Positions 4,857 to 24,825 of a DNA stretch of 64,000 nt are shown here, piece by piece. Below the pieces are notes generated by a model, which did no database searches, had not been told where the DNA came from, and saw nothing but the letters and a program-made list of their open reading frames with translations. The stretch is from Anaerostipes butyraticus (GTDB lineage Bacteria; Bacillota; Clostridia; Lachnospirales; Lachnospiraceae): positions 62,001 through 126,000 of the forward strand of contig NZ_BLYI01000027.1 in NCBI RefSeq assembly GCF_016586355.1. The letters run 5' to 3'. Position 1 is the first letter of the stretch. Each line of letters opens with the position of its first letter. Position numbers and translations under genes: made by a program.

Positions 4857-6041
4857 CTATTTATTTGCTAATTTATAGATTTCGAAGATATCATCCTTGT
4901 CACAGACTTTAAATGATCCAATACTTCTTGTTCCGCCGTATGAACATCCATCGGCCATTTTTTTAAGTTCTTCCTCTGTCTTAATACCTATTTCTTCTGC
5001 TTCGCTAAAACAGGTCGGCATATCCAGAGAAGCAAAATACGCAACTGTTTTTTTGATTGCTTCTTCTGCTGCCTTGCTGCAGTCCTTCTCCTCGATTCCC
5101 CATACTCTTTCTGCGTACTGCACAAATCTCTGAGGTTTTTCCTGATAGACATACTGCGCCCATGCTCCCCATACAGCAGACAAACTTGCCCCGTGAGCAA
5201 TGTCAAATTTTGCGCTCAGCTCATGTCCCAGCTGATGAACCGCAAAATCCTTTTCCGCTCCAAGACCTGTCAGTCCATTATGGGACAGGCTTCCTGCCCA
5301 CATAATCTCGCTCATGGCATTATAATCATGGGAATCCTTGATTGCGGCTGCGCCATTGCGGATCACCGTCCGGAGCAGTCCTTCCGCGATCTCATCTGTC
5401 AGCTCATTATTCTCTGTCGGCGTAAAATAGCGATCCAGAGTATGCATCATAATATCTACAATACCGCATCCAACCTGGTATTTTGGTAATGTATAAGTAA
5501 GTTCCGGATTCATGACCGCAAATGCAGGGCGGTTAAAATCTGTACTAAGCCCTCTCTTAATCTGTGTTTCTTCATTGGTAAGAACTGCTGAGTCACTGGT
5601 CTCGCTGCCGGCCGCTGCCAGAGTGAGAACAACTCCTACAGGCATGGACTTCTCTACTGTCTTCTTTCTTGACCAGAAATCCCAGATATCTGTATCCGGA
5701 TTTGCTGTTCCATGGGCTACGGCTTTTGCCGTATCAATGACACTTCCGCCGCCTACCGCAAGCACAAAATCAGAACCGAATTCTTTTGACATCTCCACTG
5801 CCTGTCTGGCAAATGATAATCTCGGATTCGGTTTTACTCCTCCCAGAGCCTTATATGTAAGCCCTGCCTCTTCCAAAGATGCTGTTACACGATCCAGAAG
5901 CCCGCTTCTTACGACACTCCCGCCGCCGTAGACAACAAATACCCTGGATGCTCCGCACTGTTTCGCAAGCTGCCCTGTCTGTTTTTCTGTTTCCTTTCCA
6001 AACACGATCCTTGTCGGTGTGTACTGAGTAAATGAATGCAT
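4857..6041 (-). CDS. Iron-containing alcohol dehydrogenase (butanol-dehydrogenase-like)
   Basis: A 394-residue group III dehydrogenase interconverting alcohols and aldehydes with NAD(P)H. The nucleotide-binding GGGSVID is at 97-103. The metal ligands are visible as Asp196 and His200 (GIVDIMMH), His269 (HQLGHE) and His283 (DIAHG). It resembles the BdhA/YugJ type, which acts on short aldehydes, but substrate cannot be read from sequence. It lies just downstream of the chorismate mutase-shikimate kinase gene (42-base gap) and may be co-transcribed, so it may belong to the aromatic/cyclitol island. It is not closely similar to the second iron dehydrogenase at 27.6 kb. Confidence 0.9.
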   Translation of the reverse strand: MHSFTQYTPTRIVFGKETEKQTGQLAKQCGASRVFVVYGGGSVVRSGLLDRVTASLEEAGLTYKALGGVKPNPRLSFARQAVEMSKEFGSDFVLAVGGGSVIDTAKAVAHGTANPDTDIWDFWSRKKTVEKSMPVGVVLTLAAAGSETSDSAVLTNEETQIKRGLSTDFNRPAFAVMNPELTYTLPKYQVGCGIVDIMMHTLDRYFTPTENNELTDEIAEGLLRTVIRNGAAAIKDSHDYNAMSEIMWAGSLSHNGLTGLGAEKDFAVHQLGHELSAKFDIAHGASLSAVWGAWAQYVYQEKPQRFVQYAERVWGIEEKDCSKAAEEAIKKTVAYFASLDMPTCFSEAEEIGIKTEEELKKMADGCSYGGTRSIGSFKVCDKDDIFEIYKLANK

Positions 6042-6083
6042 ATCTTATCCTCCATTCCTTTATCATCTTATGAATTAGAATCG

Positions 6084-6863
6084 TCATTCTCCTCTTGTCA
6101 GTTTTACAACGATCTCTTCTGCGATTTCCTCAACCCTCTTATGATCTGTGTTCACGATGACATCGGCTGCCGCCTCATATTTCGGACGCCGTTCTTCCAT
6201 CAGTTTTGAAATATACTCCGTATTTTTATGTCCTCTAAGAAGCGGTCTCTCATCACTGTCTTTGACTCTCTCCAAAATGACTTCCGGTGATGCCGTTAAA
6301 AGAACAACCTTCCCATTCTTCTTCATCTCTGCAACGTTCTCATCTCTCATGGCAACTCCACCGCCGCATGAGATGATCTGATTATTGCCTTTCTGAAGTT
6401 CAATCAGAAGGTTTGTCTCGCAGTTGCGGAAATATGTCTCTCCATATTCTTCAAATATCTTATTAATGGACATACCTTCTTTGTCTACAATTTCCTGATC
6501 CATCTCCACATAAGGAGACGCCAGGATTTTGCTCAAATAACTGGAAACTGTGCTCTTTCCGACTCCCATAAATCCAATCAAAAGAATATTATGGGTAAAC
6601 AATGTTCTTGCCTGGATTCTTCTGCTGTTCTCTAAAATATATGCAAAAATATCCAGAATTTCATTTTTGTATGTATTCTCGCTTACATGGGTCATCAGCA
6701 TCTTGCGCTGATGCTTCTCCTGTTCCGGCTGCAGGATTGGCAGTCCATTCTCTTTCTTGTAGACCATAATCTCTTTGATGATATCCATTCTCTCTTCCAG
6801 AACAGAAACTATCTTTTTGTCGCAGAGATCCAGTCTCTGTCTGATTTCTTCTAACTGGTTCAT
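6084..6863 (-). CDS. aroK: Chorismate mutase-like domain fused to shikimate kinase
   Basis: A 259-residue two-domain protein. Residues 1-88 look like an AroQ-class chorismate mutase helical domain: Arg8, Arg25, Lys36, Glu49, Ser80 and Gln84 align with E. coli active-site residues R11, R28, K39, E52, S84 and Q88. The D48 and R51 equivalents are Gln45 and Gln48, so mutase activity is uncertain. Residues 92-259 are a complete shikimate kinase: P-loop GFMGVGKST (97-105), shikimate-binding DQEIVD and YFRNCE, CGGG, and the lid arginine in ERPLLRG. The kinase makes shikimate-3-phosphate, a gateway from shikimate into aromatic amino acids. It sits beside LysR/reductase module 1 and shares a topic with the quinate/shikimate genes at 17-20 kb. 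Confidence 0.85.
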   Translation of the reverse strand: MNQLEEIRQRLDLCDKKIVSVLEERMDIIKEIMVYKKENGLPILQPEQEKHQRKMLMTHVSENTYKNEILDIFAYILENSRRIQARTLFTHNILLIGFMGVGKSTVSSYLSKILASPYVEMDQEIVDKEGMSINKIFEEYGETYFRNCETNLLIELQKGNNQIISCGGGVAMRDENVAEMKKNGKVVLLTASPEVILERVKDSDERPLLRGHKNTEYISKLMEERRPKYEAAADVIVNTDHKRVEEIAEEIVVKLTRGE

Positions 6864-6967
6864 TATAATGTTTCCTTTTCTATCGCTCTTTTTTCTGCCC
6901 TTCTGATTTCAAAGGGGCAAATCTTCATTCAGTATAGCATAAAGGAACCGTTATTTTCAATGGTTTC

Positions 6968-7855
6968 TCACAGCACAGAATAGTTCTTTTTCACAAATTC
7001 AGCAAAATCTTTCGCCGCCGGCGCAAGATATTTATTCTTCTTTATTACAAGATAAATATACCGCTTGATTTTCGGCGAAGTTATATTAAGAATAGACAGA
7101 TCCATGGTTTGAAGAAGCGGAATCTTTGGAATGATCGCAATTCCAAATCCTGCCGCGACAAGACCTGCCACAGATGAATCTTCTTCTCCTTCATACACGA
7201 TCTCCGGCTGTCCGTGAATCTGAGAAAACAGCTGATTGATCACCGGACGCAGACCGCTGTTTTTTGCAAATGCGATATACGGATATTGTATCGTATCCTG
7301 CAGATCTATGGACTGATATGCTGCCAGAGGATGGTCTCTCGGGACAATCAAAACAAGTTCCTCTTCTGCCACCGGATAAAATTCCAGATCATTTTCTCCT
7401 TCCACATAAGATGAGAACACAAAATCATAGACCCCTTCTTTCAGCTGATCCACTACCTGCCTGGTTGTCCCCTGTCCAAAAGAAAAATGGATCTGATTTT
7501 CCCCTTTTTCAGACATATAGTGATTAAGCATCTCCGGGATAAAATGACTGCCCAGCGTATAAATATAACCAATATCAAGAAATCCTCCCTGAACTCCGGA
7601 TGCTTCCATCAGAATCCGCTTTCCTTCATCCAGCATCTCCAGAGACTGCTCCACATACCTTAAAAAAATCTTCCCATATTTGGTCAGCTTGGCGTTTCTT
7701 CCGTGCTTTTCAAAAAGCTGGACTCCCAGCTCCTCTTCCAGACAGGAAATGGCGTGGCTGAGGCTCGGCTGAGTGATAGACAGGAGCTTTGCGGTTCTCG
7801 TATAATGCTCCTCTTTCGCCAGTGCCCGAAAATAATATAAATGATTTAAATTCAT
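6968..7855 (-). CDS. LysR-family transcriptional regulator (module 1)
   Basis: A 295-residue regulator. Residues 1-60 form the winged helix-turn-helix (YYFRALAKEEHYTRTAKLLSI, TQPSLSHAISCLEEELG); residues about 90-290 form the periplasmic-binding-protein-like effector domain. It is divergent from the enoate reductase at 7991, the classic LysR arrangement, so it probably senses that enzyme's substrate and activates it. It is clearly paralogous to the regulator at 20281 (shared MNLN.LYYF start and GRN..LTKYG..FL), suggesting that a LysR-reductase module was duplicated. The gene immediately downstream on the same strand is the chorismate mutase-shikimate kinase fusion, with about 100 bases between them. 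Confidence 0.9.
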   Translation of the reverse strand: MNLNHLYYFRALAKEEHYTRTAKLLSITQPSLSHAISCLEEELGVQLFEKHGRNAKLTKYGKIFLRYVEQSLEMLDEGKRILMEASGVQGGFLDIGYIYTLGSHFIPEMLNHYMSEKGENQIHFSFGQGTTRQVVDQLKEGVYDFVFSSYVEGENDLEFYPVAEEELVLIVPRDHPLAAYQSIDLQDTIQYPYIAFAKNSGLRPVINQLFSQIHGQPEIVYEGEEDSSVAGLVAAGFGIAIIPKIPLLQTMDLSILNITSPKIKRYIYLVIKKNKYLAPAAKDFAEFVKKNYSVL

Positions 7856-7990: not shown

Positions 7991-9979
7991 ATGGCAGCGA
8001 AGAATTTCCGTAAATTATTTGAACCCTGTACAGTAAAATCTATGACCCTGAAAAACCGAATCGTCATGACTCCAATTGGAACCAATTTTGCTGAACATAC
8101 CGGGGAAGTCAATGAAAAGATCATTGAATATTATAGACAGCGTGCAAAAGGGGGAACCGCCCTTATCACTGTAGAAGGTGCCAGCGTTTACTCTCCGCAG
8201 GGAGCGGCTGGAGCCTATCAGCTGAGAATTGACCATGACAACTATATTCCGGGACTTTACCGTCTGTGCGAAAAGGTTCATGAATATGGAGCCAAGATCA
8301 GTATTCTGCTGAACCACGCCGGAGCGGCAGCTAATGGAAGCATGACAAATATCCAGCCGGTTTCCGCTTCTGACATCCCAACCAGCAGAGGAGGAGATAT
8401 TCCAAGACCTTTGTCTAAGGATGAGATTTTAACCATTGTAGACAAATTTGCAAAAGCAGCGCAGCGTGCAGTTACCGCTGGATTTGACGCTGTGGAAATC
8501 CAGGCAGGACATGGATACTTATTGAATCAGTTCCTTTCTCCTCTTACCAATGATCGTACCGATGAATTCGGAGGATCCAAGGAAAATCGTGCTCGTTTTA
8601 CAACTTTAGTACTGAAAGCTGTCCGCGAAGCAGTCGGAGAAAATATTCCTATCTTCCTCAGCATAAGTGCAGATGAACTTGCAGAAGGAGGAAATACGCT
8701 GGAAGATACCAAAGAAATCGTAGAATACTTCAAAGAATATGTTGATGTATTCAGTGTATCTGCAGGACTTACCTGCTCCATCCAGTATCAGTATGATGCC
8801 GATTACCTTCCAGACGGATGGAAATCTTATATGTCCAAAGCTTTAAAAGAGGCAACCGGAAAACCTTGCCTTACCAGCGGCAATATCCGCGAACCGGAAG
8901 TTGCCAACCGTATCCTGGAAGATGGAGAAGCTGACTTTATCGCCATCGGCCGCGGTCTGATCGCAGATCCTGAGTGGGTGAATAAAGTACAGTTTGGCAA
9001 TACAGAAGATATCAACCGATGCATCTCCTGCAACAATGGATGTACCGCAACTCTTGGTGATGAACCAATTCGATGCACGATCAATCCGTCCATCGTTTCC
9101 GGTGAATATTACAAGAATTATAAATTGAAGAAGCCTTGCAATGTTGTTGTAATCGGCGGCGGAACCGCAGGACTTGAAGCTGCCTGCACAGCTGCGGAAG
9201 TTGGATGCTCTACCGTATTGATCGAAAAAACAGGACAGCTTGGAGGTCTGGCAAGACGCGTTGGAAAAATGCCAAACAAACGCCGTCTTGGATATTTTCC
9301 TGAATATCTGGAACACCGCGCTTCCAAATTAAAGAATTTATTTGTAATCAAAAATACAGAGGCTACCATTGATCTGATCGAAGGCTGCAAACCGGACATC
9401 GTAGTCAATGCAACCGGTTCCTTCCCTCTTCTTCCGGATATCAAGGGTCTGAAAGAAAACCTGAAAGCAGGCAATGTATCCACTATTTTCGACTTAGTCG
9501 ACAATGTGGAATCTTATGAAGAAAATCTGGAAGGCAAGAAAGTCGTTGTCATCGGCGGCGGAAATGTCGGCCTTGACGTTGTTGAATTTTTCGCTCCAAG
9601 AAAAGCTGATGTTACCATTGTAGAACAGAAATCACGGTTTGGAGAAACCCTGGACTTTATTACGAGAACCGGTTCTCTTGCCATGCTCAGCAAATACGGT
9701 GTTCACCAGTATCCAAACGCTTCTCTTCTGGAAGTAAAAAATGACCGTTTTGTTGTACGCCATGACTATAAAGATATTGAGCTCGAATTTGATTACGGAT
9801 TTATCTGCCTTGGAATGGAATCCGCAACGCCTGCCCTCAAAGAATTATATGATCACTTCATTTATGAAGGCATTGAAGTTCTGAATATCGGAGACAGCGC
9901 TCAGACACGCCGTATTATCGAAGGTGTTAAAGAGGGTCGTGATATCATTCTTTCTCTGGAAAGACTGAATTTCATTTAA
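7991..9979 (+). CDS. Old Yellow Enzyme-type FMN/FAD/4Fe-4S enoate reductase 1
   Basis: A 662-residue flavoprotein of the 2,4-dienoyl-CoA reductase / 2-enoate reductase / BaiCD-BaiH group. Residues 1-340 form the FMN-binding barrel (NRIVMTPIGTNF; HGYLLNQFLSP..NDRTDEFGGS). Cys344, Cys347, Cys351 and Cys362 form the Fe-S motif. Residues about 375-662 form an FAD/NAD(P)H domain with two dinucleotide motifs (VVVIGGGTAGLEAA and VVVIGGGNVGLDVV). Family members use NAD(P)H to reduce C=C bonds conjugated to a carbonyl or carboxyl. Substrate is unproven; the island suggests an unsaturated acid such as a hydroxycinnamate or 3-dehydroshikimate (inference). It is monocistronic between its own promoter and a strong terminator, and a close paralogue lies at 21308. 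Confidence 0.88.
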   Translation: MAAKNFRKLFEPCTVKSMTLKNRIVMTPIGTNFAEHTGEVNEKIIEYYRQRAKGGTALITVEGASVYSPQGAAGAYQLRIDHDNYIPGLYRLCEKVHEYGAKISILLNHAGAAANGSMTNIQPVSASDIPTSRGGDIPRPLSKDEILTIVDKFAKAAQRAVTAGFDAVEIQAGHGYLLNQFLSPLTNDRTDEFGGSKENRARFTTLVLKAVREAVGENIPIFLSISADELAEGGNTLEDTKEIVEYFKEYVDVFSVSAGLTCSIQYQYDADYLPDGWKSYMSKALKEATGKPCLTSGNIREPEVANRILEDGEADFIAIGRGLIADPEWVNKVQFGNTEDINRCISCNNGCTATLGDEPIRCTINPSIVSGEYYKNYKLKKPCNVVVIGGGTAGLEAACTAAEVGCSTVLIEKTGQLGGLARRVGKMPNKRRLGYFPEYLEHRASKLKNLFVIKNTEATIDLIEGCKPDIVVNATGSFPLLPDIKGLKENLKAGNVSTIFDLVDNVESYEENLEGKKVVVIGGGNVGLDVVEFFAPRKADVTIVEQKSRFGETLDFITRTGSLAMLSKYGVHQYPNASLLEVKNDRFVVRHDYKDIELEFDYGFICLGMESATPALKELYDHFIYEGIEVLNIGDSAQTRRIIEGVKEGRDIILSLERLNFI

Positions 9980-11922: not shown

Positions 11923-11972
11923 CAATCCGGCAGGAAATCATTCCTTTCACAGGTCTATTGCATAAATAAAGA

Positions 11973-12007
11973 ACGTCTGCACCTGATACAGGCACAGACG
12001 TTTTTTG
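11973..12007. terminator. Terminator between convergent genes
   Basis: AACGTCTG (11973-11980) and CAGACGTT (11996-12003) form an 8-bp stem, followed on the plus strand by a T-run. It ends the radical-SAM-like gene and could also end the long minus-strand operon, whose last gene stops at 12013. Confidence 0.8.
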
Positions 12008-12012
12008 TTTCT

Positions 12013-13029
12013 CTATTTTTCCGCATTCTTCAAATATGCGTCAACTAAGTCTTTTGATACATCATCTTCAATTTCTTTATAAATATCAGAGGCCGCTTCC
12101 CTTATCTGCTTCCGGGTCCTGCTGCTTAATTTTATGATCTTAGTTCCGCTGTCTTTAATTGTTTTGATTCTGTCCTCAATTCGTTCGTCTGATTTTTCCC
12201 GGGCATATTCTTTTGCAGTTTCCGCTGCCTGCGTTATAATTTTCTGCTGATCTTCCGGAAGATTTTTAAAAAACTCATCGCTGACGATCAATGAAATATA
12301 ATGCGGAAGATGATTTGTCTCCACAACATAGTCCTGCTGTTCATACAGCTTGCTGGAAACGATGACTTCGTATGGATTTTCCTGAGCATCGATCGTTCCC
12401 TGCTGCAGTCCAATATACACCTCGCTGAAAGTCATTGGTGTCGGATTCGCCCCGAGGTCTTTCCAGAACTCTAAATGATACGGATTCTCCATAGTACGGA
12501 TCTTCTGTCCTTTAAAATCACCGATGTCTTTGATTTCCTTATTCGTGGACATAACACGGAATCCCTGATCCGCATATCCAAGGAGTTTATATCCTCCTTT
12601 TTCATAGACTTTTTCCATCTTCTGATAAAATGCAGGATTATCTACTGCTTTACGTGCTTCTTCAATGGTATCAAACGCACTTGGCAGATCGAACACTGCC
12701 GTATCCGGGAGAAATGTCACCTGAGGCGCTGTATTCTGGACTACAAACGGAATATCACCGTCTTTGCAGCTTTCCAGCAGCTCACGGTCTCCTCCCAGAG
12801 TACTGTTCGGATATACTTCAATTTTCATTTTCCCATTGCTCAGACGGCTCACTTCATCCGCAAATTTTTCTGCATAAATCTGCGTTACCGTATCTTCCGG
12901 ACTGGAGGTTCCAAGAGGCCAGGCATAACGCTGCACCTCATCGGAAGACTGTTTTTTCTTACATCCCGATAACCCAATTCCGATTACCAGAACACTTAAT
13001 ACGATAAGACATACTTTCCATTTTTTCAT
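12013..13029 (-). CDS. dctP: TRAP transporter solute-binding lipoprotein (DctP)
   Basis: Extracytoplasmic receptor of a tripartite ATP-independent transporter that delivers carboxylate-bearing solutes to DctQM. The ATG at 13029 is preferred: GGGAGG lies 8 bases upstream and overlaps a GTG nine bases earlier that would otherwise start the frame. A signal peptide ends in the lipobox LSGC (Cys23), so the mature protein is a membrane-anchored lipoprotein. The family signature is intact around GQKIRTMENP, whose arginine normally salt-bridges the ligand carboxylate, and TFSEVYIGLQQGTIDAQENP. It is last in the quinate-type operon, one base after dctM. A negatively charged ligand such as quinate, shikimate or a cinnamate fits but is not proven. 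Confidence 0.93.
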   Translation of the reverse strand: MKKWKVCLIVLSVLVIGIGLSGCKKKQSSDEVQRYAWPLGTSSPEDTVTQIYAEKFADEVSRLSNGKMKIEVYPNSTLGGDRELLESCKDGDIPFVVQNTAPQVTFLPDTAVFDLPSAFDTIEEARKAVDNPAFYQKMEKVYEKGGYKLLGYADQGFRVMSTNKEIKDIGDFKGQKIRTMENPYHLEFWKDLGANPTPMTFSEVYIGLQQGTIDAQENPYEVIVSSKLYEQQDYVVETNHLPHYISLIVSDEFFKNLPEDQQKIITQAAETAKEYAREKSDERIEDRIKTIKDSGTKIIKLSSRTRKQIREAASDIYKEIEDDVSKDLVDAYLKNAEK

Positions 13030-13030
13030 C

Positions 13031-14329: not shown

Positions 14330-14817
14330 CCTTCCTCCTCCTTATCTTTTTTTACTGCAATCTTAAATTCAATAATCCAGCGCTGTATGATCCGAAATGC
14401 CACTAAAATAAAACTGACCAAAGGTGCGGCCTGAATATAATACATAGGAATTCCGCATGCCGGACTTACCTGTCCGCTTTCAAACGCACTCTTCAAATAC
14501 AGCACAGCATAAGGAATCAGATAAAAGAAGAAAATCAGTTCAATCGTATGATTTACGACTTTAAAGACTGCCTGTCCTCTTCGCGGAAACATTCCTACAA
14601 ACTGTTCAATTTTAATTGAAATACATTTTTTCGTACAATAACTAACGCTTAAAAAACCAGACCAGATAAACAAATATCTTGTTATTTCCTCTGACCAGGA
14701 TAATGATGCACCCAGGGCATATCTGGCAAATACCTGGATGCCCATGATCACCGTCATGGCGATCAGCAGTGCCACCATGAGAAATTCTTCCAAATTCTCA
14801 TTCAGCCATTTTAACAT
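14317..14817 (-). CDS. dctQ: TRAP transporter small permease (DctQ)
   Basis: A 166-residue four-helix membrane subunit. The family hallmark is visible: MTVIMGIQVFARYALGASLSWSEE (residues about 20-43), followed by the central tryptophan/glycine segment IWSGFLSVSYC. It pairs with DctM. It starts 13 bases downstream of the GntP-type permease gene and is translated from an overlapping junction with dctM. Confidence 0.93.
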   Translation of the reverse strand: MLKWLNENLEEFLMVALLIAMTVIMGIQVFARYALGASLSWSEEITRYLFIWSGFLSVSYCTKKCISIKIEQFVGMFPRRGQAVFKVVNHTIELIFFFYLIPYAVLYLKSAFESGQVSPACGIPMYYIQAAPLVSFILVAFRIIQRWIIEFKIAVKKDKEEEGCQH

Positions 14818-16135: not shown

Positions 16136-16153
16136 TTTCTCTCTTTTCTACTC

Positions 16154-17074
16154 CTATTCTTCTGTGTCATCTTCTCCTGCAATAAGAATCCTGCGGAATG
16201 GTTTCCTGTACGGATTACTGCCTTCAAAGAAATGTTTATCCAAAAAGTCAATGCACTTTTTAATGTTCTCATCACTCTTCATCTTTGGCGATCCATGAGG
16301 CTCCCCCTCAAAAAGATCCAGAACCGCACGGTCTTCCCCGCAGACTTCCTTGATTTTTTCATACATATAAACAGACTGATGGTAATCTACAACTGCATCA
16401 TCCATTCCATGCTGCAGCAGCATCGGAGGACAGTGTTCATCGACATACCGGATTGGGCTTACCCTGCAGGTTCTTTCCGGATACAAAACAGGATGATATC
16501 CGAGAAGTTCCGTAAATTCCGTTCCAAACTGCTCAGCCGAACATAACTCGCTCATTGTATACCAGGCAATCGCACACTGGATTTCAGAGGATGCCCTCTC
16601 TCCTACTGTAAGATCATCACAGTCCGCACGATCCCCGGTCACCGCTATCAGCTGAGTTGCAAGTCCGCCGGCTGAATTGCCCCAGACTGCAAAACGCTCC
16701 GGATCCAAATCAAGTTCTTTTGCATGTCTTCTCAGATAACGGACTGCGGCTTTTCCGTCAATCAGCTGTGCCGGCCATTTTGCTTCCTGACAAAGCCGGT
16801 ATTCTATTGTTGCCACCGCATATCCCTGGGTCACAGGAAGACACATGGATTTGATATAATGACTTCTCTTATGTCCCGTTACAAAAGCTCCGCCATGAAA
16901 CAGCATAACCAGCGGAAATGGTCCCTCACCTTCATCCGGATAAAAAATGTCCAGAATCTGATTGACCGACTGATCTGCATATGGAAGGTCCAGACGAGTC
17001 TTCCTGAATTGTTTTACATCAATTTCCGGTTCTTCTTCCAGAAACTGTTCCCGGTTTCGAAATATTTCTGTCAT
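16154..17074 (-). CDS. Alpha/beta hydrolase, hormone-sensitive-lipase-like carboxylesterase 1
   Basis: A 306-residue cytosolic esterase; no signal peptide is visible. The oxyanion-hole motif HGGAF is at 60-64, the nucleophile is Ser134 in GNSAGG, and the other triad members are Asp226 (HGMDDAVV) and His260 (EPHGS). Related enzymes cleave esters of small aromatic or acyl acids, including ferulate and acetyl-xylan esters. In an operon with AroD, a YdiB-type dehydrogenase and acid transporters, cleavage of an imported hydroxycinnamoyl-quinate ester is a sensible proposal, but the sequence alone does not show it. AGGAGG precedes the ATG. A hairpin lies just upstream, between this gene and aroD. 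Confidence 0.85.
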   Translation of the reverse strand: MTEIFRNREQFLEEEPEIDVKQFRKTRLDLPYADQSVNQILDIFYPDEGEGPFPLVMLFHGGAFVTGHKRSHYIKSMCLPVTQGYAVATIEYRLCQEAKWPAQLIDGKAAVRYLRRHAKELDLDPERFAVWGNSAGGLATQLIAVTGDRADCDDLTVGERASSEIQCAIAWYTMSELCSAEQFGTEFTELLGYHPVLYPERTCRVSPIRYVDEHCPPMLLQHGMDDAVVDYHQSVYMYEKIKEVCGEDRAVLDLFEGEPHGSPKMKSDENIKKCIDFLDKHFFEGSNPYRKPFRRILIAGEDDTEE

Positions 17075-17156: not shown

Positions 17157-17924
17157 TTAAAGGCTCTTATGCAGTAATTCCAAAACAGTTTTCAGATCTT
17201 CCACACCCATCTGTCCTGGTGCAGATGCTTTCTTTGCTGCGCCAAATGTCAGCGCAGATCCGAATACCTCTCCGCAGAGACGGCTGATAACTCCGGTTCC
17301 TGCCATTGACATGGTGATGATCGGCCGGTCTGCATAATTAATATACATCTCTTCTGTAGCTGAAAGCAATGTTAAAACATCTTTTTTGCAAGTCGGCATA
17401 ACAGCGATCTTAGGAATATCCGCATTCAATTCCTGCATTTTCTGAAGTCTTCTCACGATCTCATCCTTTTCCGGTGTCTTATCGAAATCGTGATTGGAAG
17501 CTACCACTTTTACTCCGCACGCATGTGCGTTCTCTATAATCTCTTTTACAATCTCGTCTCCTGTAAATACTTCCACATCTACAAGATCTACATATCCGGA
17601 TTTTGCCGCCTGAATATTTAATTCTTTGTAAGGCTCCGGCTCAATTGCTTTTTCTCCGCCTTCTTTTGATGTACGGAATGTAAAGAGGATCGGCGTCTCT
17701 CCAAGAGCTTCCCTCAAATCTTTCAGAACATCTTCTACTTTATCAAACTCAAAAACATTCTCAAACCAGTCAACACGCCATTCCACCACATCGACCGGAA
17801 TGCTGTCAAAAGTTTTTGCTTCTGCGATGATTTCTTCTTTTGTTACTCCAACGATTGGAACACAGATTTTTGGAATTCCGGCTCCGATCTCAATATTTCT
17901 TACCTTTACCGTATTCATTGGCAC
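17157..17924 (-). CDS. aroD: Type I 3-dehydroquinate dehydratase
   Basis: Schiff-base enzyme that interconverts 3-dehydroquinate and 3-dehydroshikimate. It is 255 residues, typical of type I. His145 (SNHDFDKTP) and Lys172 (PKIAVMP) match the catalytic pair; EWRVDWFE near 48 and FTFRTSKEGG near 81 bind substrate, and MSMAGTG near 206 and SAPGQM near 234 are conserved. Placement with a YdiB-type dehydrogenase and YdiM-type carrier, as in E. coli, favours a role in using external quinate or shikimate, though it can also serve biosynthesis. AroD is downstream of the MFS gene by 33 bases. Confidence 0.95.
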   Translation of the reverse strand: MPMNTVKVRNIEIGAGIPKICVPIVGVTKEEIIAEAKTFDSIPVDVVEWRVDWFENVFEFDKVEDVLKDLREALGETPILFTFRTSKEGGEKAIEPEPYKELNIQAAKSGYVDLVDVEVFTGDEIVKEIIENAHACGVKVVASNHDFDKTPEKDEIVRRLQKMQELNADIPKIAVMPTCKKDVLTLLSATEEMYINYADRPIITMSMAGTGVISRLCGEVFGSALTFGAAKKASAPGQMGVEDLKTVLELLHKSL

Positions 17925-17957: not shown

Positions 17958-19148
17958 TTATTTTGCAGATTCCTCTGCGTTTTTCAGCAGCACTCCATAT
18001 CTTGCATTTACAAAGACAGCCAGAAGCACACCAATGACTGTGATTACAATGTTCATAATGATAACCTGAGAAGAAGTCATCTTCGCAGCTGCTGTAAGAA
18101 TCGTATAATTACATAAACTTGACGCGATCATAACCAAACTTGTAATCGTTCCTTTGATTTTCGGGAACAGGTCGTTAACAACAGCTGTTGCCATCTGGAG
18201 AACTCCTCCTGCTGCAGCATAACCGATTACAAAAGCACCAACATAACAGATCATCGGTGATTTGATCAGATATACAAGAACAAGCATCACTGCTGAAATC
18301 GCCGGATAAATTACCAGGAATCTTACCTGTTTAAATTTTGTGATCAGAAGACTTGTTACAACCAGCGCTACCATTGTTCCTGCTGAATAGTATGTCTGCA
18401 TCATAGATACACTCTCAGATGGGATTCCAGCCACATCATTGGCAAATGTCTGTGCGCAGTTTAACCATAACTGGAATGTAGCTGTACTTGTAAATCCAAT
18501 CAGAATCAAAGCAATGCTCTCGATTGAGAAATGAGCATTCTTCAGATTGCTGATAAAAGATTCTGACTTTCCGCTTTCAGATGCTGCAGGAAGCGGTGCA
18601 AAAATCGCAAGGATTCCAAGAACTGCAATCACAATACCGCATACCAGTGGAAGCATCAGATAAGACATGCTTGTTCCTGCTGCTACTCCAAGGAAGAAAG
18701 GCATTAACAGCTGTGCAACAGAAATAAAGAATTTAATTCCCATTGTAGCAATACCTGTATACTTATAAATAATCTCAGCAACTGCAGGATATGTAGCGGT
18801 ATCAAGGAAAGAGTTTGCGATTCCTCCTAAAACTGCCGCAATATAAGCAATCGTTGTGTTTGGTGAGAACGCGATTCCTACAAAAAAGATAACATAAGAA
18901 GCGCATCCAATCAATACAGAAAGACGGCGTCCCAGTTTATCAGACAATGGTCCTGCAAATGGAAGGGAAATCAGACGTCCCAGTCCTAATGCCGCAGCGA
19001 TGGATGTTACTGCCATTACATCATTTAATCCCCACTGCTCAGAAAGCATTTCTTTTACAACCTGCTGACTTAAAATGGAGCATCCAATTCCATGTATGAA
19101 ATAGTTTAAATAAAGAATTAACGCACTCGGTAAATATTTTTTATCCAT
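17958..19148 (-). CDS. MFS transporter of the YdiM/YdiN type
   Basis: A 396-residue, twelve-helix major facilitator. The segments LYLNYFIHGIG at the N-terminus, PFAGPLSDKLGRR near 63 and GGIANSFLDTATYP near 108 closely recall E. coli YdiM, which lies next to ydiB and aroD in that species. The motif GPLSDKLGRR is the MFS A-motif. Import of quinate or shikimate is inferred from this conserved neighbourhood. It lies between the ydiB-like gene (37-base gap upstream) and aroD, so the three probably share a transcript. Confidence 0.88.
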   Translation of the reverse strand: MDKKYLPSALILYLNYFIHGIGCSILSQQVVKEMLSEQWGLNDVMAVTSIAAALGLGRLISLPFAGPLSDKLGRRLSVLIGCASYVIFFVGIAFSPNTTIAYIAAVLGGIANSFLDTATYPAVAEIIYKYTGIATMGIKFFISVAQLLMPFFLGVAAGTSMSYLMLPLVCGIVIAVLGILAIFAPLPAASESGKSESFISNLKNAHFSIESIALILIGFTSTATFQLWLNCAQTFANDVAGIPSESVSMMQTYYSAGTMVALVVTSLLITKFKQVRFLVIYPAISAVMLVLVYLIKSPMICYVGAFVIGYAAAGGVLQMATAVVNDLFPKIKGTITSLVMIASSLCNYTILTAAAKMTSSQVIIMNIVITVIGVLLAVFVNARYGVLLKNAEESAK

Positions 19149-19185: not shown

Positions 19186-20061
19186 TTAGTCGTATTTAAT
19201 ATCCAGTACTTCTTTCATATGATCGATCGGCATATGTTTTCCTGTCCACAGATGGAATGCCGCATCTCCCTGGAATAACATCATTCCAAGACCGTTCATT
19301 GTCTTGCATCCTGCTTCTTTTGCCATCTTAAGAAGTGCTGTCTCTCTTGGAGCATAAATTGTATCAGTTACGATCAGGTCCGGGCGGAAGAAAGATTTAT
19401 CCGGCACAACAGACTGTCCTTCCATCGGTTTCATTCCAACGCCAGTTGCCTGTGCAAATAAGTAACTGTCCTCAATTTCTTCTCTTAACTTTTCTTTGTC
19501 ATCCAGATCATAAAGGTTTACGATACAATCTGTATTCGCGCGGATCTTTTCTACTGTTCTTTCTGCGTTCTCCCAGAATTTATCTTTAATATTGAAGATT
19601 GACATTTCTTTCACACCATCCAGTGCTGCCTGGATTTCAATTGCTGTTGCAGCTCCTCCTGCTCCGGCAATTGTCATTTTTTTGCCAATCACATCAATAT
19701 CATTGTCTTTTAATGACTGCATATAACCGATTCCGTCTGTGATATGTCCGATCAGTTTTCCATGATCATTTACAATTGTGTTGACAGCGCCAGCCATTTC
19801 TGCAGCTGGTGAAAGTTCATCCAGATACTGTCCTACAACTGTCTTATTCGGCATAGATACGTTAGATCCTACCATTTTTAAAGCTCTCAGACCTTTGATC
19901 GCATCTTCCAGAGTGTCATTGTCAACCTCAAACGCAAGATATGCGTAATCCAGTCCTAATGTAGCAAATGCTTCATTGTGCATTGCCGGTGAGCTGGAAT
20001 GTCTGATCGGATAAGCCATCAGACCGATCAGTTCTGTGTGTCCTGTAATTCTTTCTGCCAT
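19186..20061 (-). CDS. ydiB: Quinate/shikimate dehydrogenase, YdiB type
   Basis: A 291-residue AroE-family dehydrogenase. The N-terminal ELIGLMAYPIRHS.SPAMHN, VSMPNK, GVGMKP and LWTGK blocks look like E. coli YdiB, which oxidises both quinate and shikimate, rather than biosynthetic AroE. Catalytic Lys73 and Asp109 are present, and GAGGAA is the nucleotide loop (near 133). After it the sequence is FNIKDKF where YdiB has FNRRDEF: the aspartate that can hold the NAD ribose is kept (Asp160), while the arginines that favour NADP are lost, so NAD use is inferred. It heads the minus-strand operon running to dctP and is divergent from LysR 2. Biosynthetic shikimate dehydrogenase remains an alternative. 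Confidence 0.85.
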   Translation of the reverse strand: MAERITGHTELIGLMAYPIRHSSSPAMHNEAFATLGLDYAYLAFEVDNDTLEDAIKGLRALKMVGSNVSMPNKTVVGQYLDELSPAAEMAGAVNTIVNDHGKLIGHITDGIGYMQSLKDNDIDVIGKKMTIAGAGGAATAIEIQAALDGVKEMSIFNIKDKFWENAERTVEKIRANTDCIVNLYDLDDKEKLREEIEDSYLFAQATGVGMKPMEGQSVVPDKSFFRPDLIVTDTIYAPRETALLKMAKEAGCKTMNGLGMMLFQGDAAFHLWTGKHMPIDHMKEVLDIKYD

Positions 20062-20196
20062 TTTCTTTTTCTCCTTTATATCTTCATTTTTTTGTTTACG
20101 TTACTCTCACCCAAAAGTTAATTTTTTAACAACCTTACGTCCCTCATTATATACGAATTGAACTGATACTTCTAATATATCTTTTCATGATTATTA

Positions 20197-20280: not shown

Positions 20281-21171
20281 ATGAATTTAAATCAGCTGTA
20301 TTATTTCCAAAAAGTTGCTGTGCTGCAGCACTACCACCAGGCCGCAAAAGAACTGAATATTTCTCAGCCGAGCCTAAGCCGTTCTATTTCCAACCTGGAA
20401 GATGAACTCGGTCTGAAACTCTTTGTTAAAAAGGGGCGGAATATTGAACTGACCAAATATGGACATCTTTTTTTAGAGCATGTTAACCGCATTTTGGAGG
20501 AAGTAAAAATTACACTGGATAAGATGCATTCCCTCTCCTCTTCCTCCGGCGGTCATATTGATATCGGGTATGTATTTCCTCTGGCCAAATCCTATATTCC
20601 TCATATGGTACGCAGTTTTTTAAATAAGGATCATAACCATGAGATTACATTCTCTTTAAGCCAGGAGATTACAAAAGAGCTGATCACAGCCCTTAAAACA
20701 GAAAAATATGATGTTATCTTTGGCTCAAAAGTTCCAGACGAAACCGAAATTGAATTTATTCCTGTTGTAAATCAGGAAATGGTCATCATCACACCTCCGG
20801 GACACCCATTAAAATATAAGAAGCCTCTGGTTCTGGAAGATTTGATGGACTATCCTGTCATTGGTTATGACCGGACCTCCGGACTGGGACAGTACACGAC
20901 TTCTATTTATAAGCAGAATCATATGAAACCATCCATCGCATTTGAAACCTCCGATGAAAATGCGATCGCAGCCCTTGTGGCAGAAAATTTTGGAATCGGT
21001 TTTGTCGCACATGTAGAATCTCTGAAAGAATATAATGTAGATATTCTTCATTTAGATAATGTCAAACCATACCATACTGTCTATATGGCATATTTAAAAG
21101 ATCATCCCAGAATACCGGCAGTACAAAAATTTATTGATTTCGTTCAGGAAACCATAGATAAAATTTATTGA
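20281..21171 (+). CDS. LysR-family transcriptional regulator (module 2)
   Basis: A 296-residue LysR protein with an N-terminal helix-turn-helix (HYHQAAKELNISQPSLSRSISNLEDELG, about 17-45) and a C-terminal effector domain. It is divergent from ydiB and followed by enoate reductase 2, so it is placed to control both the minus-strand quinate-type operon and the reductase. The start ATG lies 8-14 bases after an AAAGGATAGGA stretch. It is a paralogue of the regulator at 6968. The ligand is probably an intermediate shared by the operon (inference). Confidence 0.9.
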   Translation: MNLNQLYYFQKVAVLQHYHQAAKELNISQPSLSRSISNLEDELGLKLFVKKGRNIELTKYGHLFLEHVNRILEEVKITLDKMHSLSSSSGGHIDIGYVFPLAKSYIPHMVRSFLNKDHNHEITFSLSQEITKELITALKTEKYDVIFGSKVPDETEIEFIPVVNQEMVIITPPGHPLKYKKPLVLEDLMDYPVIGYDRTSGLGQYTTSIYKQNHMKPSIAFETSDENAIAALVAENFGIGFVAHVESLKEYNVDILHLDNVKPYHTVYMAYLKDHPRIPAVQKFIDFVQETIDKIY

Positions 21172-21190: not shown

Positions 21191-21219
21191 TTGTTAAATA
21201 TTTGACCAGATGTTATAAT
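21191..21219 (+). promoter_or_regulatory. Sigma-A-type promoter of enoate reductase 2
   Basis: TTGTTA (21191-21196), a 17-base spacer and a perfect TATAAT (21214-21219). The ATG used is at 21308, after TTTTGGAGG, leaving a leader of about 80 bases. Confidence 0.75.
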
Positions 21220-21307: not shown

Positions 21308-23305
21308 ATGAAATCTAATTATAAGAATATTTTTTCACCACTGACAATTAAAAACATGACAATGAAAAACCGCATCATGATGACTCCAATGGGAACAAAC
21401 TATGGAGAACAGACAGGCGAAATGAGCTTTTTGCATATTAACTATTATGAAGAAAGAGCAAAAGGCGGCGTAGGACTGATCATGGTAGAGAATGCAAGTG
21501 TAGATTCTCCTCTTGGATCAAACGGTACTACCCAGATTCGAATTGACCATGATAACTTCATGCCTCGCTTTTTTAAACTTTGTGAAACGATTCACTCTCA
21601 TGGAGCATGTATTGGTCTGCAGTTAAATCATGCCGGAGCTTCTGCTCAGTCTAAAAGAACAAATATGCAGCCGGTATCTGCCTCCGACATTCCTTCCAAA
21701 GAAGGCGGAGAAATCCCTCGCCCTCTGGAAAAAGATGAGATTTATGCAATCGTAAAAAAATATGGAGAAGCTGCTGCCCGCGCTCAGGCTGCCGGATTTG
21801 ACTGTGTGGAAATCCATGCGGGACATTCCTACCTGATCAGCCAGTTTATGTCTCCTACGACCAATAAGAGAACAGACGAATTCGGCGGATGTCCGGAAAA
21901 CAGGGCCCGTTTCGCAAAACTGGTCATTGAAGAAGTCCGCAGACAGGTGGGACCGATGTTCCCAATCTTCGTGCGTCTCAGCGCTGATGAGTTCGTAGAA
22001 GGCGGAAATACACTGGAAGATACATTGGAGCTCATTTCCTATTTTGAAAAAGAAGTGGATGCTTTTGATGTATCCGCAGGATTAAACAGTTCTATCCAGT
22101 ATCAGATCGATGCAAATTATCTGAAAGACGGATGGAGATCTTATATGGCAAAAGCCGTAAGAGAAAAATATGGAAAACCATGTATTACTATGGGAAATAT
22201 CCGTGACCCGAGAGTCGCAGATGATATCCTCGGCAGAGGTGACGCTGACATCATCGGAATGGGCCGCGGACTGATCGCAGACCCTCACTGGGTGAAAAAA
22301 GTTGCCACTGGCAGAGAAGATGAAATCAGAAAATGTATTTCCTGCAACATCGGATGTGCCGGAAACCGTATCGGCGTAAACCGTCCGATCCGCTGTACTA
22401 TCAATCCGACTGTTAACTCAGGATATGATTATAAAAAGCACAAAGTAAATAAGCCTTGCAATGTTGTTGTAATTGGCGGAGGAACCGCAGGACTGGAAGC
22501 TGCCTGTACAGCTGCCGAAGTCGGATGTACAACTTTCTTATTTGAGAAAAAAGATGTACTGGGCGGATTATCCGTAGAAATCTCCAAGATTCCGGATAAA
22601 AAACGTCTGGGAGACTTTCCGGCATACCTGGTAAACCGCGCTTCCAAGCTTACCAACCTGTTTATCTTTAAAGGACAGGAAGCAACTCTGCCGCTGATCA
22701 AGGCGCTTCACCCGAATATTATTGTGAACGCTACCGGATCTAATCCGCTGCTTCCGCCGATCAAGGGACTGCATGACCATATCGATAAGGAAGGCTCCAA
22801 AGTCGCTTCTATCGCCGGCATGATCAACAGCCTGGCTGAATATCCGGAAGACTGCTCCGGCAAAAAAGTCGTTGTAATCGGAGGCGGCGCTGTAGGTCTT
22901 GATGTCGTTGAATATTTCGCTCCAAAAGGCGCTGATGTCAGCATTGTGGAAATGATGCCTCAGATCGGTAAAGATCTGGACCCTGTTTCCAAGTGCGGCA
23001 CTAACGCTTTGATGAAGAAATACAATGTAAATCAGATGCCGAATACTGCTCTCTGTGAAGTTAAAGCAGATTCCTTCGTTGTAAAAGCCGGAGAAGAAGA
23101 AAAAGAACTGCCATTCGACTATGGATTCGTATGTCTTGGAATGCGCGCCAATGCGCCGATCCTTGATGAAGTCAGAGAGGCTTTCGCAGACACTGACGTG
23201 GAAATTCTTAATATCGGTGACAGTGTACGCGCAAGAAGAATCATCGACGGCGTTCAGGAAGGACATAACATTTTAAGTACTCTTGCAGATATGGATTATC
23301 TGTAG
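21308..23305 (+). CDS. Old Yellow Enzyme-type FMN/FAD/4Fe-4S enoate reductase 2
   Basis: A 665-residue paralogue of the enzyme at 7991. The start at 21308 (MKSNYKN) is chosen because GGAGG lies just upstream and the -10 at 21214-21219 would sit inside the leader of a start at 21218. The FMN barrel (NRIMMTPMGTNYGE; HSYLISQFMSP..NKRTDEFGG) is followed by the cysteine motif CISCNIGC...RC and two dinucleotide-binding motifs (VVVIGGGTAGLEAA, VVVIGGGAVGLDVV). One difference from copy 1 is HAGHSYL in place of QAGHGYL by the active site, which may change the substrate. It probably reduces the C=C of an unsaturated carboxylate with NADH, fitting an electron-sink role beside ydiB and aroD. Substrate is unproven. 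Confidence 0.88.
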   Translation: MKSNYKNIFSPLTIKNMTMKNRIMMTPMGTNYGEQTGEMSFLHINYYEERAKGGVGLIMVENASVDSPLGSNGTTQIRIDHDNFMPRFFKLCETIHSHGACIGLQLNHAGASAQSKRTNMQPVSASDIPSKEGGEIPRPLEKDEIYAIVKKYGEAAARAQAAGFDCVEIHAGHSYLISQFMSPTTNKRTDEFGGCPENRARFAKLVIEEVRRQVGPMFPIFVRLSADEFVEGGNTLEDTLELISYFEKEVDAFDVSAGLNSSIQYQIDANYLKDGWRSYMAKAVREKYGKPCITMGNIRDPRVADDILGRGDADIIGMGRGLIADPHWVKKVATGREDEIRKCISCNIGCAGNRIGVNRPIRCTINPTVNSGYDYKKHKVNKPCNVVVIGGGTAGLEAACTAAEVGCTTFLFEKKDVLGGLSVEISKIPDKKRLGDFPAYLVNRASKLTNLFIFKGQEATLPLIKALHPNIIVNATGSNPLLPPIKGLHDHIDKEGSKVASIAGMINSLAEYPEDCSGKKVVVIGGGAVGLDVVEYFAPKGADVSIVEMMPQIGKDLDPVSKCGTNALMKKYNVNQMPNTALCEVKADSFVVKAGEEEKELPFDYGFVCLGMRANAPILDEVREAFADTDVEILNIGDSVRARRIIDGVQEGHNILSTLADMDYL

Positions 23306-23343: not shown

Positions 23344-23377
23344 AAGAGCCATGAAATCTGCGGGTTTCATGGCTCTT
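23344..23377. terminator. Strong hairpin after enoate reductase 2
   Basis: AAGAGCCATGAAA (23344-23356) and TTTCATGGCTCTT (23365-23377) form a perfect 13-bp stem with an 8-base loop. T-runs are short on both strands, so termination is likely but not certain. Confidence 0.65.
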
Positions 23378-23382
23378 CCCAA

Positions 23383-23899
23383 CTATAAATATTTTTTCAT
23401 TACTGCTTTCTTCATATCCAAATAAGGCTGATATTTATCCTTTTCAAACAGCAATACCTCTTCTTTTTCTGCATCTTGAAGAGACAAACTTTCTCCATTA
23501 TCCATATAAGTCCAAACCTATCTGCGTTTCCCTGTATAATTCAGGCATACTGGTGTCTGCTCGATATTTTCCATAAGTCATACTAACCGGAATATATACA
23601 TACTGATCTTCACTAAAATGTGAATTTTTCACTTTACGTAAAAATAATATATATTCTTCTCCTCTTGCCATCGGCGTGTATCCTTCCTGACACAGCACAG
23701 GGTTTGTAAATCCTGTACAATTTACCGGTTCAAATAAGTGTATTTTCTCTCCCGATTTAATAGTTCCTTTCCAACATTTTATCACGTCTGCCTGAGACAA
23801 AATACATTCTGTATAGATTGTTTTCTTTACAGACTTTGTTTCGGCGTATCGATCGGATAGTGGAAGTCCCCCCCTTCCCTTATCCTTCATGAAATGCAC
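23383..23899 (-). pseudogene. Broken hypothetical gene (frameshift near 23500)
   Basis: One open frame covers 23899-23498 (133 codons) and ends in a TAA. A second frame starts at an overlapping ATG (23505) and runs 40 codons to 23383. Together they would make one protein of about 175 residues, so a frameshift is likely. The visible core (TECILSQADVIKCWKGTIKSG..., then MARGEEYILFLRKV) has the look of a secreted beta-rich protein seen in Firmicutes with no assigned role. The apparent start is GTG with no ribosome-binding site, and no signal peptide is present, so the 5' end also seems lost. It directly follows esterase 2. Confidence 0.55.
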
Positions 23900-23901
23900 A
23901 G

Positions 23902-24825
23902 CTAATTACGGTATGGGTCAGATACACAGCGGTTTATGAAATCAATTACCACATCTTTCACTGCCTGGCACCAGAACAGGCTCCCTCCGTGGTCCGCCCC
24001 TTTTACCTGATAGAATTCCACCGGGTCAATCTTTAATTCTTTTAACCGTTCATATAAAATCACACTCTGGCCAAACGGCACCTGCGTATCTTTAGAACCG
24101 TGCAGGATCAGCAGCGGCGGTATGTTCTGACGCTCCTTAAAATAAGCAACCGGAGAACAGCGGTACGCCAGTTCCGGTTTGTCCACTACATCATATCCTC
24201 CGATTTCCAAGCCTTCCGGTGAATGTTCTCCTCTGTGCTCCACCAGAGACGGTTCATAATTCATCTGTTCCAGATGCGTCGGGCCGTAAAAATCAATACA
24301 GCCTCTTAGTGCCGGAAGCGGTGTTCCTTCATCATCCAGCCGTCCATCTTCCCATGTGGCCAGGCTGCAGAGAGCCGTATGTCCGCCGGAGGAATCTCCC
24401 GCCAGAAAAATGTTATTGATATCAATCGGATATGCCGGTGCGTGCTGTACCAGATAACGCACGGCGCTTTTGGCATCCTGCACCTGAGCCGGAAACGGCG
24501 CCAGCGTACTTGGTCTGTACTGTACAATAGCTGCGGCAACCCCTGATTTTACAATCTCATAGAGATCCATCACATGATTGTTCATGGACTGTTCTTTCCA
24601 CGCAGAACCCTGGATAAACACCAGCAGAGGATATTTTTCCTCCTCATGTCCCTGGTGCACCGGGAAAATAAACCTGATATGCAGTTCCTTCCCGTCTTTT
24701 ACAGCATATACCGGCTGAATATCCTGTACTTTTGGCTCTATATTGTTTTGGTCTCCCTGAAGTACTTTCATCCCTTCGGATGATTTTTCGGATTCCGGGA
24801 AATCTTCGAATTTCTGTGTCGTCAT
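23902..24825 (-). CDS. Alpha/beta hydrolase, BD-FAE/lipase-like esterase 2
   Basis: About 307 residues from the ATG at 24825 (AGGTG lies 6 bases upstream); a TTG ten codons earlier has no better site. The catalytic serine is Ser145 in GDSSGG; the aspartate is in HGSKDTQVP and the histidine in GADHGGS. The oxyanion region reads FIQGSAW instead of the usual HGGGW. Members of this group remove acetyl, feruloyl or other acyl groups from plant-derived esters. It is only distantly related to esterase 1 at 16154, so the island has two unlike esterases. It is convergent with enoate reductase 2. Confidence 0.83.
   Translation of the reverse strand: MTTQKFEDFPESEKSSEGMKVLQGDQNNIEPKVQDIQPVYAVKDGKELHIRFIFPVHQGHEEEKYPLLVFIQGSAWKEQSMNNHVMDLYEIVKSGVAAAIVQYRPSTLAPFPAQVQDAKSAVRYLVQHAPAYPIDINNIFLAGDSSGGHTALCSLATWEDGRLDDEGTPLPALRGCIDFYGPTHLEQMNYEPSLVEHRGEHSPEGLEIGGYDVVDKPELAYRCSPVAYFKERQNIPPLLILHGSKDTQVPFGQSVILYERLKELKIDPVEFYQVKGADHGGSLFWCQAVKDVVIDFINRCVSDPYRN

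Follow-up and report, generated by a model that had tools for sequence, protein, structure and literature searches.

Introduction

Genes of the shikimate pathway that lie beside large flavin-dependent ene-reductases may serve aromatic biosynthesis, the use of plant acids or the disposal of electrons, and which of these applies is the question raised by a locus of Anaerostipes butyraticus, a member of the Lachnospiraceae with a genome of 3.17 Mb. The locus was studied in a stretch of 64,000 nucleotides (contig NZ_BLYI01000027.1, positions 62,001 to 126,000), referred to as the window throughout, where it extends from position 4857, which falls within a gene for an Fe-type alcohol dehydrogenase left unnamed in the initial annotation, to position 24825. 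It encodes a YdiB-type quinate/shikimate dehydrogenase, a type I 3-dehydroquinate dehydratase (AroD), a carrier of the major facilitator superfamily (MFS), a tripartite ATP-independent periplasmic (TRAP) transporter, a GntP-family permease, two LysR-type regulators, two esterases (Est1 and Est2), a chorismate mutase-shikimate kinase (CM-SK) fusion, and two reductases of the old yellow enzyme (OYE) type, OYE1 and OYE2 (Table 1). An initial annotation had described these genes as an island for the use of quinate, shikimate or quinate esters with the reductases as electron sinks, and every gene that it named is present on the strand given. The present comparison leads us to propose, with a probability of about 0.57, that the locus encodes a conserved pathway by which anaerobic cells dispose of electrons on quinate and/or shikimate, its operon being derepressed by NADH via the repressor Rex. 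This proposal is built on the gene content, its conservation across genomes, the clade specificity of one reductase and a conserved operator-like sequence.

Conserved gene set of the ydiB loci

The comparison set comprised the best 80 of 295 candidate loci by similarity to YdiB, and all open reading frames (ORFs) of at least 100 amino acids in these loci were clustered into families. The loci are related by descent, and the counts are not numbers of independent events; since the loci were chosen by YdiB similarity, the description of the core extends to close relatives of YdiB and no further. Within this set, the YdiB loci nearest to that of the window come from Anaerostipes or other Lachnospiraceae and are 96-97% identical.

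Clustering placed YdiB in 75, AroD in 68, OYE and LysR in 63 each and MFS in 61 of the 80 loci, followed by the TRAP components DctM (51), DctQ (49) and DctP (48) and by CM-SK (26), whereas every further family was present in at most seven, among them the Est1 family (5) and GntP (4). The joint occurrence of AroD, OYE, LysR and MFS, each in 61-68 of the YdiB loci, confirms that the gene set is not a chance assembly. A tblastn search of the 45 loci with a length of at least 20 kb agreed with the clustering (OYE 41, AroD 44, MFS 40, DctM 35, CM-SK 16, esterase 4, GntP 3). Thus, the core across genomes is YdiB, AroD, MFS, TRAP, LysR and OYE, often joined by CM-SK, with esterase and GntP as rare additions. 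Where OYE and YdiB are both present, they are divergently oriented in 53 of 63 loci, with a median gap of 1.6 kb, and carriers with the reductase beside YdiB include Coprococcus comes (L057), Pseudobutyrivibrio xylanivorans (L061), Hespellia stercorisuis (L054) and Clostridium ljungdahlii (L068).

Esterases were considered as part of the core and rejected, as genes similar to Est1 or Est2 were detected by tblastn in only 7 of the 80 loci (GntP in 4), and Est2 was the best match in none of the 80. The use of quinate esters therefore does not hold as a general rule, and this element of the initial annotation fits a local variant only. An esterase and a GntP gene adjoin each other between aroD and dctQ in the window and in three related loci (L004, L013, L026) and behind aroD in a fourth (L020). 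Because they occur together at a like position of the operon in few loci, they look like an optional cassette, which in the window spans positions 14831-17074 and is carried by several genomes of the Anaerostipes and Mediterraneibacter types.

A Rex-type operator upstream of ydiB

The region upstream of ydiB was compared in 79 stretches, namely 78 loci and the window; two loci were left out, as their YdiB match began after residue 1 or was located too close to the end of a contig. The palindrome TTGTTAA-N4-TTAACAA was present with at most two mismatches in 56 of these stretches, with at most one mismatch in 17 and perfectly in two, as against a background of 0.8% in shuffled sequences and 1.4% in random windows. 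Any of the other 104 permutations of the half-site was found in at most 4 of the 79 stretches, and spacers of 1-8 nt other than 4 in at most 8. In 47 of the 56 cases the 45 nt before the site contain an exact TATAAT, and in 41 of them the box ends 12-13 nt before the site. Carriers of the site belong to Anaerostipes, Mediterraneibacter, Coprococcus, Pseudobutyrivibrio, Hespellia, Faecalicatena, Terrisporobacter and Clostridium (L080, L083), and include the C. comes, P. xylanivorans and H. stercorisuis loci named above. Upstream of the inner operon genes, the site was detected in 2 of 69 stretches for AroD, 1 of 62 for MFS, 2 of 50 for DctQ, none of 52 for DctM and none of 49 for DctP, and likewise in none of 27 for CM-SK. 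Upstream of OYE it was present in 16 of 68 stretches compared with a background of 2.3%; of three reductase copies without an adjacent YdiB, two (L118, L120) have the site shortly before the start of the ORF and one (L124) has none.

The palindrome resembles the operator of Rex, a repressor that senses the NADH/NAD+ ratio. For comparison, Rex sites are given as ATTGTTANNNNNNTAACAAT for T. ethanolicus and as TTGTTAATAAATTAACAC for adhE of T. saccharolyticum (PMC5886521), and a general Rex consensus as TTGTGAANNNNTTCACAA (PMC6391272). Rex releases its genes at high NADH (PMC5886521). The ydiB site thus appears similar to those of known Rex regulons in operator sequence, spacing and position relative to the promoter, and presumably in the logic of NADH sensing. 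In the accessible parts of the two papers ydiB, aroD and OYE are not named as Rex targets (PMC5886521; PMC6391272), the literature search not having been aimed at Rex. A Rex protein domain (PF06971) was found in all 25 genomes checked, and the Rex protein of the host scores 328 bits (cut-off 233). Rex-type sites in the host genome also lie 29 nt before a [FeFe] hydrogenase gene and 57 nt before each of the genes for lactaldehyde reductase and glyceraldehyde-3-phosphate dehydrogenase; these belong to the 15 sites examined among the 27 Rex-like ones of this genome, and others of the examined sites lie in or before unrelated genes.

An RNA element was considered in place of an operator, and weak pairing of the palindrome in a transcript is conceivable; a scan of positions 4500-25500 against Rfam yielded no match at the gathering score. 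A LysR-type box (TGATAGC...GCTAT) is located at 20150-20250 of the window, upstream of the -35 region of ydiB, and was seen in several related loci; in the form AAGCTATCAA it occurs in 13 of the 79 upstream stretches compared with 0.15% of random windows.

The reductase clade linked to YdiB and AroD

Since OYE-like genes are numerous in the family, a reverse search was run from OYE2, blind to YdiB, in 100 genomes of the family and 391 of the class (the latter at E <= 1e-120). The relatives of OYE2 form a clade with at least 50% identity, the next matches having at most 39%; considering full-length members, the clade begins at 57% and the next match follows at 35%. Besides OYE2's own genome, 13 copies were found in 10 genomes (both copies of G005 are in several fragments and may be defective). 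YdiB and/or AroD lie beside nine of the 13 and CM-SK alone beside two, whereas YdiB, AroD or CM-SK (E <= 1e-5) lie beside none of 20 other OYE-like genes, which were the best non-clade matches of 20 of the family genomes and are in several cases located on short contigs (Fisher p 2e-5 for YdiB/AroD neighbourhood). In a tree of 100 rows, calculated with a quick method and having long branches outside the clade, the 74 clade rows form one side of a branch with an SH-aLRT support of 100 and a stem length of 1.9. Hence, one reductase clade is specifically tied to YdiB and AroD.

The deepest position within the clade is taken by OYE1 together with Anaerostipes-type relatives. Members of this branch were encountered in Anaerostipes-type loci only, flanked by CM-SK/LysR1 on one side and a HAD gene on the other, and in OYE1 the first active-site histidine is replaced by glutamine (VEIQAGHGYL).

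OYE2, the structure of which is predicted with confidence (pLDDT 92), has the architecture of Fe-S ene-reductases of the FadH/OYE kind, with an FMN barrel, the cysteines of a 4Fe-4S cluster and an FAD/NAD domain. Among solved structures, 2-naphthoyl-CoA reductase and 2,4-dienoyl-CoA reductase (FadH) are closest to it over the full length, with TM scores of 0.88-0.89 and 25-28% identity, and it shares with them the entire fold and the 4Fe-4S motif, of which all four cysteines are kept. The OYE-type motif H170-x-x-H173-x-Y175 is also kept in OYE2, whereas FadH lacks the two histidines of this H170/H173/Y175 set, and N260 of OYE2 occupies the column of a FadH histidine. Residues that are invariant in the clade, OYE1 excepted, and rare in the controls include H43, N62, N72, T74, R78, N107, S112, R117, N260, Q264, Q266, D268, R277, N297 and R299, of which OYE1 has R78, N107, Q264, Q266, D268, N297 and R299. 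Such a set of polar residues would suit a small polyhydroxy acid as substrate.

Assignment of OYE2 to a described family was rejected for BaiCD, its best family model (NF041087; 478.5 bits, cut-off 825), for the long form of BilR (NF045599; 354 bits, cut-off 750) and for mycofactocin OYE 2 (TIGR03997; 422 bits, cut-off 793).

YdiB loci also contain OYE genes of another clade, the members of which are 31-35% identical to OYE2 (L045:11831-15600, L062, L064, L068, L071, L077, L079, and L137 with the OYE at 15927). A protein with a xylose-isomerase-like TIM barrel is encoded directly before the OYE in 7 of 7 loci (one of which was scanned). In 6 of these 7 the OYE is immediately followed by a further YdiB paralogue, and in L137 such a paralogue adjoins it; the loci were found via a YdiB, though another copy than the paralogue beside that OYE. 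C. ljungdahlii (L068) has both reductase modules. The gene order resembles the presumed one of Listeria lmo2234-2237.

A proposed electron-sink pathway

Every substrate, the direction in which OYE2 works, the product and the binding of Rex are predictions in the following scheme. Quinate or shikimate would be taken up via the TRAP transporter and/or the MFS carrier, and YdiB would oxidize quinate to 3-dehydroquinate or shikimate to 3-dehydroshikimate. AroD would convert 3-dehydroquinate to 3-dehydroshikimate, the C1 hydroxyl being lost as water, and OYE2 would then saturate the ring double bond of 3-dehydroshikimate, a bond activated by ketone and carboxylate. The remaining ketone would be reduced by YdiB or by the second YdiB-type enzyme of the genome, yielding dihydroshikimate (1-deoxyquinate), which would leave the cell. 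The predicted net reaction is quinate + NADH + H+ -> dihydroshikimate + NAD+ + H2O: the oxidation by YdiB would provide one NADH and the reductions by OYE2 and of the ketone would consume two, so that one NADH would be spent per quinate or shikimate. At a low NADH/NAD+ ratio the operon would be repressed by Rex, with the adjacent LysR regulator probably acting in fine-tuning, and in the species of the window the GntP permease and the esterase may add ester substrates.

A role in NADH disposal is suggested by the combination of a Rex-type site on an operon that would lead to the enone 3-dehydroshikimate and an Fe-S ene-reductase beside it. Since the core lacks any family for ring opening or aromatization, the acid probably serves to accept electrons rather than to supply carbon. 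The initial annotation had assumed a redox-neutral route, which would apply only if the path ended at the saturated ketone; the net consumption of one NADH on the way to dihydroshikimate fits control by Rex better. Its central idea, an enoate-type reductase acting as electron sink in metabolism of the quinate/shikimate type, gains strength from three features beyond the reach of that annotation: the sharp boundary of the core, the tie of the OYE clade to YdiB and AroD, and the conserved Rex-type operator. In a more specific and more tentative form, to which we give somewhat less than an even chance, Rex-controlled reductive dehydroxylation of quinate would occur in several families of the Clostridia, and the OYE clade would be a 3-dehydroshikimate reductase.

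Biosynthetic functions and alternative explanations

A number of findings weigh against a locus that serves as an electron sink. AroD is the only dehydroquinase found in the host genome (one type I and no type II enzyme), CM-SK is probably its only shikimate kinase as judged from domain scores, and aroB and aroC are present elsewhere in the genome. A family with a representative similar to 3-deoxy-D-arabino-heptulosonate 7-phosphate (DAHP) synthase is present in 6 of the 80 loci. An OYE of the clade is not seen in 17 of the 80 loci and in 4 of the 45 full-length ones, and 2 of the 13 copies from the reverse search lie by CM-SK without YdiB while a further 2, one of them on a contig of 6.6 kb, have no such neighbour. 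The operator is missing from 23 of the 79 upstream stretches, that of C. ljungdahlii included, and the ydiB site of the window itself has two mismatches. The 27 sites with at most two mismatches in the host genome compare with 42 for a backward control and are not over-represented, and the window has nine sites with at most three mismatches where five are expected; the weight of the operator rests on its conservation and position. The substrate of OYE2 cannot be read from its sequence. The second YdiB-type enzyme of the genome has the same substrate residues and NAD-type Asp as YdiB, and for this reason these residues are no mark of catabolism.

With respect to the dehydroquinase, 18 of the 24 other cluster-bearing genomes have a single enzyme above the cut-off, one has a type II enzyme and five have two type I copies, one of which contains a stop codon in one of these genomes; in two genomes (G256 and G343) the single dehydroquinase lies outside the OYE locus. 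Two SKI-domain genes of the host exceed the Pfam cut-off, CM-SK with 160 bits and a second gene with 122 bits, which fits the homoserine kinase model best, though below the cut-off of that model, and precedes murA. An SKI-domain protein of this kind, closest to the homoserine kinase model and encoded directly before murA (L117:9606-10109), is easily taken for a shikimate kinase. The DAHP synthase-like family comprises L028:4237-5412, which lies near a CM-SK fusion, and genes of five similar loci.

With one AroD copy in the genome and CM-SK as the probable sole shikimate kinase, both should also serve biosynthesis. AroD is thus no spare catabolic copy, a dedicated catabolic island was rejected, and the word island of the initial annotation is too strong, so that the earlier interpretation is partly supported overall. 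The locus appears to be mostly shared between biosynthesis and the proposed sink, similar to ydiB-aroD of E. coli, the aroD of which is biosynthetic.

The single copies of AroD and, probably, of shikimate kinase would also agree with salvage, in which imported quinate or shikimate is converted via AroD, a dehydrogenase and CM-SK to chorismate and aromatic amino acids and OYE2 is unrelated; CM-SK in 26 and the DAHP synthase-like family in 6 of the 80 loci point in the same direction, and a route from quinate to chorismate was proposed in a rumen study (PMC10054779). Salvage is nevertheless unlikely, as the de novo genes aroB and aroC are present, most loci lack CM-SK, and it would account neither for the Rex-type operator nor for the presence of a dedicated OYE clade in 41 of the 45 full loci. 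The opposite direction of OYE2, a desaturase that forms 3-dehydroshikimate from cyclohexane acids like dihydroshikimate for the aromatic pathway, is conceivable because BaiCD, its best family model (478 bits), acts as a desaturase in its oxidative step and because the sole AroD and probable sole shikimate kinase lie in the same locus; such a reaction would yield NADH, contrary to what the Rex-type operator suggests, and we regard it as highly improbable.

The presence of an esterase and a GntP permease inside the operon and of a second esterase nearby could also mean that the reductases act on hydroxycinnamates such as caffeate or ferulate released from chlorogenate-like esters, quinate metabolism being a side branch, and OYE-like enzymes are generally known to reduce enoates. 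However, esterase-like genes (7 of 80 loci) and GntP (4 of 80) are rare and OYE is found in 63 of 80, and in the loci of the reverse search the clade adjoins YdiB and AroD, not esterases, so that this explanation is rather improbable. Just as little probability as to the desaturase is given to an aromatization of 3-dehydroshikimate, which, as in the quinate catabolism already described, would give protocatechuate and leave a later product to OYE2. Dehydroshikimate dehydratases belong to the xylose-isomerase-like TIM-barrel fold class, and a protein of this type precedes the OYE in the related second module, but a search confined to the conserved core and to 29 distinct products of the window yielded no 3-dehydroshikimate dehydratase. 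The electron-sink pathway is thus preferred to these explanations.

Organization of the locus

The eight genes from ydiB to dctP form a run on the minus strand (20061-12013) with intergenic distances between -13 and 82 nt, and these short gaps together with a terminator-like hairpin directly behind dctP indicate one operon by anatomy. ydiB on one side and LysR2 followed by OYE2 on the other are read in opposite directions out of a common region of 219 nt, and the likely start of OYE2 is 21308 rather than 21218, as GGAGG precedes the former. OYE1, at a distance of 11 kb from OYE2, lies left of the operon, as do LysR1, CM-SK, a HAD gene, presumably YqeG-like, and the gene for EF-P.

Table 1 Features of the quinate/shikimate locus in the window
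Feature	Position	Strand	Remarks
CM-SK, chorismate mutase-shikimate kinase fusion	6084..6863	-	
LysR1, LysR-type regulator	6968..7855	-	divergent from OYE1
OYE1	7991..9979	+	deepest branch of the OYE2 clade
Terminator-like hairpin	11972..12002	-	14 pairs, directly behind dctP
TRAP DctP	12013..13038	-	solute-binding
TRAP DctM	13031..14329	-	
TRAP DctQ	14317..14817	-	
GntP-family permease	14831..16135	-	accessory; Pfam 47.5 bits, cut-off 22.5
Est1, BD-FAE-type esterase	16154..17074	-	accessory
aroD, type I 3-dehydroquinate dehydratase	17157..17924	-	252 bits, cut-off 139
YdiM/YdiN-like MFS carrier	17958..19148	-	30-31% to E. coli YdiM/YdiN
ydiB-type quinate/shikimate dehydrogenase	19186..20061	-	first gene of the operon
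Putative Rex-type operator, ydiB promoter	20115..20132	-	TTGTTAAAAAATTAACTT; 2 mismatches; 13 nt behind TATAAT 20151-20146
LysR2, LysR-type regulator	20281..21171	+	divergent from ydiB
Second putative Rex-type site	21191..21208	+	2 mismatches; overlaps the -35 hexamer of the OYE2 promoter-like site
OYE2, Fe-S/FMN/FAD ene-reductase	21308..23305	+	YdiB-linked clade
Est2, second esterase	23902-24855		

YdiB scores 525 bits against model NF001313 (cut-off 431) and is 49% identical to E. coli YdiB; its best solved relative is 3tnl, a Listeria enzyme. The substrate residues of the family (S22, Y39, K71, N92, T106, D107 and Q262) and an NAD-type Asp are all kept. The GntP-family permease scores far below the NCBIfam gluconate models. 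A protein of 355 amino acids (10855-11922), for which no Pfam or NCBIfam match was obtained, was seen only in Anaerostipes-type loci, and a Rex-like site lies 55 nt upstream of its gene in the window and also in L004, but in none of L005-L007. Further to the right, a gene for a MarR regulator (25056-25481) precedes one that encodes a DUF6198-type domain joined to a cytidylate-kinase-like domain (25490-26788).

Relation to known systems

Bile-acid 7-dehydroxylation (BaiA, BaiE, BaiCD/BaiH) proceeds by oxidation, dehydration, reduction of the enone and reduction of the ketone. The route proposed here would follow the same chemical plan, but with a small hydroaromatic acid as the proposed substrate and a reductase that stays below the BaiCD cut-off. 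In Listeria, the QuiR/QuiC2 operons presumably combine LysR control with a neighbouring OYE-like gene, as at the window locus; QuiC2 reportedly makes protocatechuate, whereas the window-type core has no such family. The E. coli locus ydiM-ydiN-ydiB-aroD likewise has a YdiB dehydrogenase, a type I AroD and MFS carriers of the YdiM/YdiN type side by side, but no OYE, TRAP or LysR gene is annotated in the 12 kb of E. coli sequence inspected.

Reduction of quinate and shikimate to hydroaromatic acids, including the predicted product, has reportedly been described in old work on lactobacilli and gut flora, and to our knowledge the genes responsible have not been assigned. No title or abstract assigning an OYE to quinate or shikimate reduction was found, which is weak evidence of absence, as most subscription papers lay outside the search. 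About 75% of YdiM/YdiN homologues are located next to shikimate genes, and Firmicutes account for about 57% of the YdiM homologues (PMC10588857). Gut microbes are reported to help turn quinate into hippuric acid, and a 2022 overview has the entry NA in place of an enzyme for this conversion (PMC9560768).

Implications

What is new here is the conserved Rex-type operator upstream of ydiB. It offers an independent physiological hint in named carriers, by which the electron-sink idea is open to direct testing. Quinate is common in the diet, and a short gene list and one reductase clade can now be named for its predicted reduction. If the proposal is correct, a plant acid would join the electron acceptors of gut fermenters, enzymes of the shikimate pathway would act as a respiratory-like sink for NADH in a small-molecule counterpart of bile-acid 7-dehydroxylation, and a function would be assigned to one clade within the large OYE family that Lachnospiraceae possess. 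Dihydroshikimate would then be an entry to the hydroaromatic acids from which other gut bacteria and the host make benzoate and hippurate.

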